Shown: positions 46,576 through 53,021 of the stretch, in pieces
Layout: the number at the start of each line of letters is the position of its first letter
How positions within the stretch are numbered: the stretch's first letter is position 1
From: Desulfopila aestuarii DSM 18488
GTDB taxonomy: Bacteria > Desulfobacterota > Desulfobulbia > Desulfobulbales > Desulfocapsaceae
DNA length: 64,000 nt
Assembly (NCBI GenBank): GCA_945863875.1
Contig: CAMBBS010000021.1
Coordinates: 1-64,000, forward strand
Reading direction: 5' to 3'
Translations under genes and position numbers: made by a program
The notes under the pieces: generated by a model
What the model was told of the DNA's origin: nothing
The model's database searches: none
The model's input: the letters and a program-made list of their open reading frames with translations, nothing else

Positions 46576-46734
46576 ATGCAAAAATGGGAATGTCCTTGTG
46601 GTTATATCTATGATCCGGAAGAAGGTGATTACGAAAATGGTGTCGATCCAGGGACCCCGTGGGAAAAAGTTCCTGCCGACTGGGTTTGCCCAAAGTGTGG
46701 TGCGGTAAAAGAGGATTTCTGGAAAGTTGATTAG
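46576..46734 (+). CDS. Rubredoxin
   Basis: 52-aa electron carrier with a single Fe(SCys)4 centre. The two ligand pairs are [16 protein letters not shown] and [10 protein letters not shown]. The first pair is CPC, spaced C-x-C where most rubredoxins have CxxC (CxxCGY), an unusual spacing shared by a rubredoxin-2-like subset. The start is set by AAGGAGA 7 nt upstream. Rubredoxins supply electrons to oxygen and superoxide reductases in anaerobes. Confidence 0.9.
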
Positions 46735-48767: not shown

Positions 48768-50045
48768 GTGACCCGATCATTTCTATCATCTGCCGGATTA
48801 GCCCTTTGCTGGATGCTCTCGCCCGAGGCTCTGGGTATTCTGGGCAACAATGCCGGCCGAAGCGGCATTATGATTTTTGTTGCATTGACGATCGGTGCAC
48901 TCCTCTCTCTTTTTACCATTGCCATGATCCATGACCCTGCTATAACAAAAAGAGATTCTTCTCTTACCTGTCTTGCTGCGGTAGCTGGCCTTCTACCGGC
49001 CATGACCCTGACCCTGGCCAGTCGCCTCGGTCTGGCGCTGTTTTTACCCACCGGTATGCTGGTTACCGCCGGTTTTACCTTCAATGAAACCTTCGTCTAC
49101 TGGTTTCCAAATTTCGCCTTTAGTTTTCTGTTGCTGGCCATCGTCCTGACACTTCATCTTGCCGGTGAGCGCGTCGCTCTTCTCGCCCAACCATTTTTTG
49201 TTGGCCTGACGATGAGCTGCCTGGTGCTGCTTTGTCTTGCCGGCCTCATCGGATCTCCGGAGGAAACGTGGTCGACAGAAATCCAAACGGGTAACCCATT
49301 ATCTTTGTCTTTGCACGTCGTCTTCACTGCGCTTCTGCTTTTTCTCGGTTATGACCAGCCTGGGTCCGCCCTTTTTTCCGGGAGCCGTGTCCAGTACATC
49401 GTGCCACTTATGGCCGGCTTTATTCTTCTGGCTCTCTGGGGTTTCGTTTCCTTAAAACACGTTCCCCGGGCAAAACTGGCCGCTTCAACAATTCCCTACA
49501 GTATCAGTGCCAGGGAAATTTTCGGACAACCCGGGAGAGTCATTATCGGCGTTGCCGTCATCAGCGGCACCTGCGGTCTGGTCAACGGTCTTTTTCTGCT
49601 GGCCGAACGTTCCCTGCGGCATATGGCTGATTATATCTCTCCTTTGCCACCTTTTCGCGCTGCCTATAACGGGAGAATCTTGCCCGTTATTTTTTCTGTC
49701 TGCATAGGAATTTTCATGGCAGCCGGATTGGCCGGCAGTGATAAGCTGAAAATATTTATCTATGGGGCCTTGCTGTTATGGCTCGTCCAGGTCGGAACGC
49801 ACTGTTTTGCCGCAGCCTCGAGATTGCACAAACAACAAAAATCGTGCAGATACCGGTATCTGCTCGTAGCTGTTTTTCCTTTGGCTGTTCTATGGCTGGC
49901 GTGCAGAGGCGAGCATGCCACAGCACTTGTTGTCTTCTTTTTTTTAGCACTGGCTGTCAGTGCGGCATGCTCGGCCGGATGGGTCTGGTATGAAGGGAAA
50001 AGACCCAACAAGACAATTCAGGATTCACAAGGAGATTTACCATGA
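48768..50045 (+). CDS. APC-like integral membrane transporter
   Basis: 425 aa with about 11-12 hydrophobic helices and few charged residues outside loops. The organisation resembles amino acid/polyamine/organocation permeases but no family signature is decisive. The stop overlaps the ATG of the selenocysteine rhodanese by 4 nt, suggesting a shared operon and perhaps handling of a sulfur- or selenium-containing compound. Start at 48768 is a non-ATG codon (GTG) and lacks a strong ribosome site, so the start is tentative. Confidence 0.65.
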   Translation: MTRSFLSSAGLALCWMLSPEALGILGNNAGRSGIMIFVALTIGALLSLFTIAMIHDPAITKRDSSLTCLAAVAGLLPAMTLTLASRLGLALFLPTGMLVTAGFTFNETFVYWFPNFAFSFLLLAIVLTLHLAGERVALLAQPFFVGLTMSCLVLLCLAGLIGSPEETWSTEIQTGNPLSLSLHVVFTALLLFLGYDQPGSALFSGSRVQYIVPLMAGFILLALWGFVSLKHVPRAKLAASTIPYSISAREIFGQPGRVIIGVAVISGTCGLVNGLFLLAERSLRHMADYISPLPPFRAAYNGRILPVIFSVCIGIFMAAGLAGSDKLKIFIYGALLLWLVQVGTHCFAAASRLHKQQKSCRYRYLLVAVFPLAVLWLACRGEHATALVVFFFLALAVSAACSAGWVWYEGKRPNKTIQDSQGDLP

Positions 50046-50428
50046 ATAAAATTCTTGCATTCCTCATTATTCTGCTCGTAGCGACAACGCCGCTCCTTGC
50101 CGCCTCGGTACAAAAAATGGACAAGGATGTACTGAAATCCCTGCTCGGTTCGGAAAACCTGCTCATCCTTGACGTGCGTCAGGGCAGGGACTGGATTACC
50201 AGTGAATTCAAAATAAAAGATGCTCTGCGGGTCGATGACGGGGATTTGTCGGTAGCGAAGACCTATCCCAAGGAGAGCACCTTTGTTCTCTATTGCGCCT
50301 GACCGAACGAAGCTACAAGTGCCGGTCTGGCACAAAAACTCATCGATGCCGGATATGACAAGGTTTATGCTCTGAAAGGCGGATGGCAGGAATGGTACCG
50401 CAATAAATATCCCGTGGAAGAGAAATAG
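50042..50428 (+). CDS. Selenocysteine-containing exported rhodanese-like protein
   Basis: 128 aa with one UGA (50300-50302, residue 87) read as Sec. A signal peptide (residues 1-21, ending LLAA) directs it to the periplasm. The rhodanese fold follows: LLILDVRQGRDW (CDC25-like motif), then FVLYC-A-Sec-PNEATSAGLAQKL and VYALKGGWQEWY. Cys85 is at the usual catalytic position and Sec87 lies two residues later, making a C-x-Sec redox pair. Without read-through the protein would lose the active loop and the C-terminal third. It overlaps the upstream permease gene. Confidence 0.88.
50319..50333 (+). promoter_or_regulatory. SECIS-type hairpin of the rhodanese mRNA
   Basis: Stem GUGCC/GGCAC closes a GGUCU loop (50324-50328) that begins 21 nt after the UGA. 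Loop sequence and distance are identical to those of the FAD reductase SECIS. Confidence 0.8.
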
Positions 50429-50484: not shown

Positions 50485-50604
50485 GAAAGCAGATAGTGTT
50501 GCAGTTAAATTTCTTCTGTAAAGCAACGGCGTTGTTCCAGACGAACCAGCAGCACCCGGCCTGTTGCCGGAACAATTGCTGCTGATCTTGTTTGACCTTC
50601 AGTC

Positions 50605-51225
50605 TCTATTTATATGCCTTGCGTATTTCCATAAGGTATTTTATACTTTGGTCTATGGAGAAAAACAACGAGATTCGAACAGGGAGACATTGCGTTTTCA
50701 ATATGCACGTCCATCTGGTGTTTGTCACCAAATACCGGAAAAAAGTGTTGGACGGAAAGGCTATCGAAATACTCCGGGAATCTTTTGCTGGGATCTGCCG
50801 GACGTCTGCAGCTGAACTGATCGAGATGAACGGAGCAGAGGACCATGTTCATCTGCTCGTTTTTTATCCGCCCAAGGTGGCCGTCTCTGCCCTGGTGAAC
50901 AGTCTGAAAGGCGCTTCGTCCAGGATATTGAAGAAGCGTTATCCCGGGATAGCCGAAAGGTATTACAAAAATGTTCTGTGGAGTCCGAGCTACTTTGCGG
51001 CCTCCTGCGGCGGTGAGCCGAGCTCCATTATCCGGCACTATGTCGAACAGCAACAGACACCGGAGAACAGCTTAGGAGCCGTTACGAAATAACCCGGCCA
51101 TTTATATCCATTTCGTTACGGATCCTTATGGCGTTCCGAGCATTCTTCCGGCCATGTTATTTTTGACAACGCTTTACCCCTTGTAGCCCCGACCTGAAGG
51201 ACCGGGCTCTACCGCGCGTTTTTGG
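50605..51225 (+). mobile_element. IS200/IS605-type element (tnpA only)
   Basis: A Y1 transposase gene is followed by a right-end-like hairpin at 51187-51206 (GCCCCGACCTGAAGG type, pairing with the CCGGG side). Such elements end in subterminal hairpins and do not make inverted repeats. The left end is only suggested by an imperfect hairpin around 50610-50640. No tnpB is present. Boundaries are approximate. Confidence 0.6.
50655..51092 (+). CDS. tnpA: IS200/IS605 family transposase TnpA
   Basis: 145-aa single-strand transposase of the HUH/Y1 family. The histidine-hydrophobe-histidine motif HVHLLVF is at about residue 64, the N-terminal FNMHVHLVFVTKYRKKV is typical, and the catalytic Tyr lies in IIRHYVEQQQ near the C-terminus. 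Length is normal for the family, so the gene may be active. Start at 50655 fits the family N-terminus. Confidence 0.88.
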   Translation: MEKNNEIRTGRHCVFNMHVHLVFVTKYRKKVLDGKAIEILRESFAGICRTSAAELIEMNGAEDHVHLLVFYPPKVAVSALVNSLKGASSRILKKRYPGIAERYYKNVLWSPSYFAASCGGEPSSIIRHYVEQQQTPENSLGAVTK

Positions 51226-51435: not shown

Positions 51436-52908
51436 TTACATAATCGGTTTCATGGCGCTCATATGCGACCGTAATTCCTCACCTACCCCTTCGATTGAAG
51501 TGTACCGAATGGCCTCATTGACCTGAATAAGGTCGAGGTTATCGACACCGTGGTCCTGCAGCTCAAGGCCCTTGCCGATGACGTCGGTGCCGATGGTCTG
51601 CATAAAATCCTGCAAAAGAGGCACGGCGGCGTTGGCAAAAAGATAGTTGCCGTATTCAGCGGTGTCGGAAATAACCACGTTCATCTCATACAGTTTCTTT
51701 CTGGCAATGGTGTTGGCGATAAGTGGAGTCTCGTGGAGGGATTCGTAATAGGCCGACTCCTCTCTGATCCCGCAGTCGACCATGGTATCAAAGGCCAGTT
51801 CCACGCCGGCCTTGACCATGGCTACCATGAGTATACCCTTATCATAGTATTCCTGCTCGGGGATTTCCTCATTGGTCGAGACTGCCTGCTCAAAGGCGGT
51901 TTCTCCGGTTTCCTTGCGCCATTTAAGAAGATTTGCATCATCATTGGCCCAGTCTTCCATCATCGTTTTGGAGAAATGGCCGGAGGCGATATCATCCATG
52001 TGCTTTTCAAAAAGTGGCTGTAAAATAGTCCGCAGCTCTTCGGCAAGAAGATACGCTTTAATCTTTGCCGGATTGGACAGCCTGTCCATCATGGCGCTGA
52101 TGCCGCCGAGTTTGAGGGATTCGGTCACCACTTCCCAGCCGTACTGGACAAGTTTTGATGCATATCCAGCATCAATACCCTCCTCGACCATCTTGTCGAA
52201 ACAGAGCAGGGATCCGGTCTGCAACATACCGCAGAGAATGGTCTGCTCGCCCATGAGATCGGATTTTACCTCTGCGATAAAGGACGATTCCAGGACCCCG
52301 GCCTTATCTCCCCCGGTAGCGCAGCAATAGGCCTTGGCAATGTCCCAGCCTTCGCCGTTCGGATCGTTTTCTCCGTGCACCGCGATCAGGGTCGGTACGC
52401 CAAAGCCACGCTTGTATTCCTGGCGGACTTCGGTGCCGGGGGCCTTGGGTGCAACCATGATGACTGTCAGATCCTCGCGCACCTGCATTCCCTCTTCGAC
52501 GATATTAAAGCCGTGGGAATAGGAGAGACAGGCGCCTTTTTTCATCAGCGGCATGATCGTGGACACGACGTTGGTATGCTGCTTGTCAGGTGTCAGGTTG
52601 ATGACCAGATCAGCGGTGGGGACGAGCTCTTCATAGCTGCCGACACGAAAATCATTTTCCGTGGCGTTCTTCCAGGACTGACGTTTTTCCTTGATTGCCG
52701 CGGCCCGCAGGGCATAGGATACGTCCAGGCCGCTATCGCGCAGATTCAGCCCCTGATTCAATCCCTGCGCGCCGCAGCCGACGATGACGACTTTTTTGCC
52801 TTTCAGGTAGTCAACGCCGCTGAATTCGGAGGCTTCCATGAAACGGCATTTGGACAATTCCGCTAACTGCCGACGAAACGGCAGGGTGTTAAAGTAGTTC
52901 GAACCCAT
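51436..52908 (-). CDS. ilvC: Ketol-acid reductoisomerase (class II)
   Basis: 490-aa NADPH-dependent enzyme of valine, leucine and isoleucine synthesis. The NADP-binding [21 protein letters not shown] is at about 45-65, and the duplicated C-terminal knotted domain of the long (plant/E. coli-type) class is present. Start at 52908 follows GGAGA by 5 nt; a longer frame to 52983 lacks support. It is transcribed divergently from an IlvY-like regulator, the classic arrangement, and ends in a strong terminator. Confidence 0.95.
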
Positions 52909-53021
52909 TTTTATCTCCTTGTATCTGTATTGTTTTTTATTTTTTGCCGGCCAGTGATCATTCCCCATGTCATATATTGACAAACTCCTGTTGCGTCAAG
53001 TGATTTGTTCGTGATATTGTA

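Follow-up and report, generated by a model that had tools for sequence, protein, structure and literature searches.

Several published listings include selenoproteins of the rhodanese type (PMC2398784, PMC1088965, PMC5029168, PMC8318568). In the accessible text of two reviews, one such form has a CxU motif: it appears as "Rhodanese-like domain-containing protein form 3" (NF041203), with one selenocysteine (Sec), in PMC13188914 and as "COG0607 form 2", with the same example protein, in PMC9312934. According to the latter text, the functions of most such predicted selenoproteins are unclear, and the accessible text assigns none to this family.

The gene analyzed here lies in a 64,000-nucleotide stretch of DNA from Desulfopila aestuarii DSM 18488, referred to below as the window. 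An initial annotation, made from the letters of the DNA, had read it as an exported rhodanese whose frame meets a UGA inside the active loop and continues beyond it. The frame begins with the ATG at 50042, contains the TGA at 50300-50302 and ends with the TAG at 50426-50428, and under the standard code gives a product of only 86 aa. With the TGA translated as a residue, the Pfam family Rhodanese (PF00581) matched residues 29-120 at 47.2 bits (cut-off 22.2), so that the domain runs across the UGA. The NCBIfam family NF041203 ("rhodanese_LYCAU, rhodanese-related (seleno)protein") matched residues 6-128 over profile positions 3-126 of 126 at 170.2 bits (cut-off 115), and its L-Y-C-A-U/C motif is present as LYCA-UGA. 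These two matches confirm the continuing frame, and the protein is almost certainly, on sequence grounds, a member of this known selenoprotein family. The rhodanese fold of the initial annotation is further supported by an AlphaFold2 model (pLDDT 92.7, from a 58-sequence alignment) that matches the single-domain thiosulfate sulfurtransferase GlpE (1gmx) with a Z of 15.1 and an rmsd of 2.2 over 104 residues. The N-terminus predicts export, again in line with the initial reading: a home-made hydrophobicity rule finds signal-like N-termini in 68 of the 77 aligned Sec forms, and is also positive in 17 of 23 CxC relatives, where membrane segments may be what it detects. Among the named relatives found, the closest is in Desulfobulbaceae bacterium BRH_c16a (L049), with 74% identity. 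The family is widespread: of 395 genomes sampled from the phylum of the window, 61 exceed its cut-off.

Table 1. Features of the rhodanese locus, in window coordinates.
Feature	Position	Strand	Remarks
Upstream APC-superfamily permease	48768..50045	+	Stop overlaps rhodanese start (ATGA)
LYCAU-type rhodanese selenoprotein gene	50042..50428	+	128 aa with UGA as Sec; NF041203 170.2 bits, PF00581 47.2 bits
Likely Sec-type signal peptide, MNKILAFLIILLVATTPLLAAS	50042..50107, end approximate	+	From the sequence; heuristic over relatives
Cys85 codon, first residue of the C-x-U pair	50294..50296	+	Cys or Sec in 77/77 Sec rows; directly follows model strand 80-84
In-frame UGA, predicted selenocysteine 87	50300..50302	+	UGA at the same column in 65 CxU rows (window included) and 12 UxU rows
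Predicted bSECIS hairpin GTGCC (50319-50323)-GGTCT-GGCAC (50329-50333)	50319..50333	+	Covariation in 77 loci

Relatives came from a genome search that gave 122 matches at E 1e-20, of which 90 were taken: all 84 above the cut-off, including the window's own locus L025, and 6 below it; the other 32 were left out. Together with 23 further relatives these make 113 loci; a length filter removed L100 and L106, the latter ending before the active loop, and 111 aligned rows were left. Their loop types are CxU (65), UxU (12), CxC (23), CxS (8), CxA (2) and SxS (1). A corrected tally over 112 rows, in which the best domain is read in two loci (L054 as C-x-C and L100 as C-x-U with a full stem), gives CxU 66, UxU 12, CxC 24, CxS 7, CxA 2 and SxS 1. 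The figures given below for the alignment, the stem and the tree rest on the 77 Sec rows with L100 excluded.

Bacterial SECIS elements are stem-loops shortly 3′ of the UGA, with a G among the first two bases of the loop. The hairpin noted in the initial annotation has this form: its apical loop (GGTCT in the window) lies 21 nt from the UGA on a 5-bp stem, and the second loop base is an invariant G in 77 rows. Folded as a lone sequence, the hairpin has a z of -0.60 and 52 of 200 shuffles are equally good; because shuffles fold as well, one sequence alone proves nothing about the hairpin. The single-sequence fold was therefore rejected as evidence of recoding and the comparative test kept. Across the 77 Sec-form loci, pairing at the five stem positions holds in 99.5% of 385 cells, two-sided changes occur at four of the five, and none of 500 shuffles reached any of five stem measures. 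Sliding the stem partner by 1-3 columns lowered pairing to 22-62%. The second pair is T-A in 48 loci and C-G in 26, with three exceptions, and both of its sides are third codon positions; the p-value of this switch is only indicative, since the sequences are related.

The stem is mostly lost in relatives with Cys, Ser or Ala. Non-Sec rows average 2.0-3.0 of the five pairs (3.0 in the 23 CxC rows), and all five are retained in 2 of 23 CxC rows and 1 of 8 CxS rows. One CxC relative near the window protein, L050 (Desulfatitalea sp.), has the whole GTGCC-GGTCT-GGCAC hairpin intact, as if Sec had been lost there recently. The codons 3′ of the UGA look constrained as protein: over 40 codons the window locus differs from L049 at 3, 7 and 16 first, second and third positions, respectively, and the third-position excess is smaller against four more distant relatives. 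A comparison of the whole window with Rfam gave no match at gathering scores. Reading of the UGA as Sec is well supported by these comparisons of sequence, and the hairpin named in the initial annotation is borne out by the covariation of its stem.

The active loop of the window protein reads Cys85-Ala-Sec87-PNEATSA and so has two chalcogen residues at a spacing of two. Cys or Sec occupies the first of these positions in each of the 77 aligned Sec forms, and parsimony requires at least eight C/U switches there among Sec rows (many forks being weak); the second position changed at least seven times over all rows on the same tree. This tree was built from 114 columns after removal of the three active-site columns, with L054 and L122 omitted; 46 of its 106 inner branches are open and some long branches meet. 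C/U exchange at both positions is what would be expected of two residues sharing in the chemistry. Twelve loci in 11 genomes (L011, L017, L021, L074, L081, L090, L091, L093, L095, L102, L123, L130) are UxU, their two UGAs six bases apart and a single hairpin 3′ of both; the genome search itself gave the same 12 places with two TGA. Some relatives keep the first Cys and have Ser (L096, L109, L114, L116, L117, L121) or Ala (L126, L131) at the second position, and L122 has Ser at both. The existence of one-Cys relatives indicates that the pair is not always needed. The C-x-Sec pair was largely upheld: relatives carry Cys or Sec, with a minority of Ser or Ala at the second position, and Sec forms have Cys or Sec at both.

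Two side observations concern the Ser forms. L109, L114, L116, L117 and L121 make up a C-x-S cluster of LYCAU relatives, in which L109, L117 and L121 are preceded by a 162-aa protein; for one of its copies, Pfam gave no match. L108, counted as CxS, has the loop YCCSUSGNNSA, in which the UGA is displaced by one codon toward the 3′ end relative to the other aligned Sec forms.

Compared with the canonical loops aligned with it, this one has two extra residues, a length shared by six C-x7-S rhodaneses from the same genus, so that Cys85 and Sec87 are both candidate nucleophiles. When the protein is aligned with rhodaneses from its own genus and order (17 rows), Cys85 falls in the canonical Cys column. 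The model has a strand at 80-84 ending at Tyr84, a loop at 85-90 and a helix from 91. In a control model of a canonical selenorhodanese from the same genome (L179), the strand ends one residue before Sec55 and the helix begins four after it. Relative to this control, whose pLDDT is only 84.1 from 9 sequences, the spacing to the strand is kept by Cys85 and that to the helix by Sec87; both models were made with Cys substituted for Sec and compared by secondary structure, not coordinates. HMMER aligned Sec87 pairwise to the catalytic Cys of 6mxv and the first Cys to that of other chains. Pairwise alignments were rejected as evidence for the nucleophile because they go both ways, and the secondary-structure anchors do not choose between the two residues, strand and helix disagreeing. 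The claim that the catalytic Cys is kept accordingly holds by the strand anchor, which gives Cys85, but not by the helix anchor, which gives Sec87.

The explanation that we favor, and consider fairly probable as a whole, is an exported LYCAU rhodanese with a SelB-decoded Sec and a two-chalcogen redox loop. SelB and the hairpin just 3′ would decode the UGA as Sec. In the periplasm, Cys85 or Sec87 would take sulfane sulfur from a polysulfide or persulfide; the other residue of the pair would then resolve it, forming an internal selenenylsulfide (Se-S) bond with release of sulfide, and an outside thiol reductant would reset this bond. We give this mechanism of sulfane-sulfur uptake with Se-S resolution an even chance. 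The function would be that of a periplasmic persulfide/selenenylsulfide redox sulfurtransferase. More tentatively, the loop could be an interchangeable dichalcogenide redox center (CxC, CxU, UxU), of which the window's C-x-U is one state, and the enzyme a periplasmic persulfide/selenenylsulfide reductase on a rhodanese scaffold rather than a plain sulfurtransferase. If so, the product of the UxU loci would be a rhodanese whose Sec-x-Sec site could form a diselenide. The recurrent Cys/Sec exchange in any case turns the vague label "rhodanese-related" into a testable claim, namely that an exported sulfurtransferase has a two-chalcogen redox site.

A simpler reading, which we regard as unlikely although it has real points in its favor, is a one-residue sulfurtransferase in which Sec87 replaces the catalytic Cys and carries a selenopersulfide, Cys85 being structural or incidental. 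The stretch from Sec87 to the C-terminus aligns with GlpE almost without gaps, the HMMER alignment to 6mxv sets Sec87 on the catalytic Cys, and the model helix begins four residues after Sec87, just as it does after the Sec of the canonical rhodanese from the same genome. On the other hand, the Cys85 position is occupied by Cys or Sec in every Sec row and still by Cys in the CxS and CxA rows, and the at least eight C/Sec changes at this position on the tree are hardly to be expected of a structural residue. By the strand end and the 17-row alignment, too, the counterpart of the canonical Cys is Cys85 and not Sec87.

Conversely, Cys85 could be the classical nucleophile, with Sec87 tuning it or ligating a metal or selenium and no Se-S bond being formed. 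Cys85 does come directly after the model strand, and the CxS and CxA relatives retain the first Cys alone. This reading is improbable given that position 87 is Sec in 77 aligned loci and Cys in 23 more rows, a pattern that suggests a redox or nucleophilic role for that residue.

The initial annotation had also looked to the Sec machinery of the genome. In the window's genome, a draft of 93 contigs that is 98.5% complete, selA (618 bits), selB (353 bits) and selD (367 and 358 bits) were all found above cut-off, but neither RF01852 model search nor pattern search of the assembly yielded a UCA tRNA-Sec. Each of the two selD genes (G000:C30:41797-42723 and G000:C4:18059-18988) has one in-frame TGA. 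The only RF01852 match above the gathering score (54.8 bits) has the anticodon GCA and is a tRNA-Cys according to ARAGORN. On contig C30, less than 1 kb separates this tRNA (L033, G000:C30:43537-43626) from one of the selD genes, and a gene identified by eye as Fe-S oxidoreductase-like is nearby; tRNA-Sec-shaped tRNAs with GCA also occur in L169 and L172. It resembles the selC* tRNA-Cys that the accessible part of PMC7609411 describes, with a UCA anticodon, in Desulfobacterales.

The UGA might accordingly be read as another residue, for instance as Cys by a tRNA of the selC* type, given that the assembly yielded a selC*-like tRNA and no UCA tRNA-Sec. We consider this very unlikely: UGA is not read by the GCA anticodon of the selC*-like tRNA in this genome, the genome has SelA, SelB and SelD in its Sec form, and a UCA tRNA-Sec was found in 22 of 26 relatives searched, same-genus relatives among them. 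The simplest reading is perhaps that the UCA tRNA-Sec falls in an assembly gap. In L155 the tRNA-Sec lies between an acyltransferase-like gene and glyQ (both named by eye); the surroundings of glyQ differ in the window's genome, and the acyltransferase-like neighbor was also not found there, in a search that had no positive control and by itself shows nothing. In another same-genus relative (L151, about 1501-2894) an integrase-like gene, identified by eye, adjoins the tRNA-Sec, a hint that selC serves as an insertion site in that genome. That the UGA is a true stop, leaving a broken gene or an 86-aa fragment, accords with a hairpin that alone folds no better than shuffles but can practically be dismissed in view of a UGA column common to 77 loci, a covarying stem and 3′ codons that look constrained.

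The rhodanese gene of the window stands directly behind the permease gene whose co-occurrence the initial annotation had raised. The permease protein itself had no Pfam match. Of three homologues tried, L008 and L010 were above the AA_permease_2 cut-off and L049 had no match, and an 11-row profile including the window protein matched ApcT MJ0609 (3gi8; E 2.7e-10) and AdiC (3ncy; E 1.1e-6). An APC-type permease upstream is thus upheld by profile, but the link is limited: one was found in 13 of the 77 Sec loci, all inside a single 21-row tree group (12 by gene calling, that of L022 being partial, and L009 by tblastn), with misses possible in L003-L032, which hold only about 1.5 kb or less upstream. 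Because only these 13 loci have one, the permease cannot explain the whole family and was rejected as a family-wide partner. Within its group it may transport whichever thiol or sulfur amino acid is involved, a role that we propose with reserve. A weak permease match in L073 (27% identity) is on the other strand and not upstream.

Other loci have other neighbors: a DUF547 protein downstream in five, grouped by clustering (Pfam run on two), and a cytochrome c-like protein upstream on the same strand in three (Pfam run on two). In the window, an IS200-like transposase gene (Y1_Tnp, 50592-51092) lies just 3′ of the rhodanese gene; a rubredoxin gene is at 46576-46734, and a ketol-acid reductoisomerase gene with two C-terminal domain matches is at 51436-52983 on the minus strand.

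Set beside NF041203, the window protein shares the CxU motif, and no difference was found at the window locus. Because NF041203 and the two reviews already list a CxU rhodanese, the novelty of the one in the window is weakened. The UxU state of the 12 relatives falls outside the motif given in the accessible text of PMC13188914 and PMC9312934, which makes no mention of a UxU rhodanese; such a form may be in print elsewhere. This state, which does not concern the window gene itself, may be the only new part. The CxC rhodaneses of Nitrospira and proteobacteria (L052 and others) have a [YF]CACPNEAT loop, with Cys in the place of Sec. In L052 the rhodanese, at 84 bits against the NF041203 cut-off of 115, is fused behind a membrane domain, unlike the window protein; this membrane domain looks DedA-like.

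Other rhodanese types were compared. Thiosulfate and mercaptopyruvate sulfurtransferases have a two-domain build and an active loop of the pattern CRxGx[R/T]; both were rejected for the window protein, which has a single domain of 128 aa and the loop CAUPNEATSA. TsoB (NF045694), a rhodanese/DsbD fusion-like selenoprotein, also has a rhodanese domain with Sec, but this identity was rejected at 23.7 bits against a cut-off of 805. The canonical selenorhodaneses of the same genome or genus (L179, L185, L191; YU-A-[SI]-GGRS) likewise have Sec in the active loop, at the place of the canonical Cys and without a preceding Cys, and in L179 and L185 the loop is two residues shorter than that of the window protein. 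The same genome has at least two more selenorhodaneses, L179 (G000:C9:108158-108424; YU-ASGGRS) and L192 (G000:C3:40697-40990; C-x4-U, YCGGSTU). With GlpE the window protein has the rhodanese fold in common, while scoring 29.5 bits against a cut-off of 102 for the GlpE family NF001195; to the GlpE plan it adds two loop residues, a second chalcogen residue and a predicted export signal.
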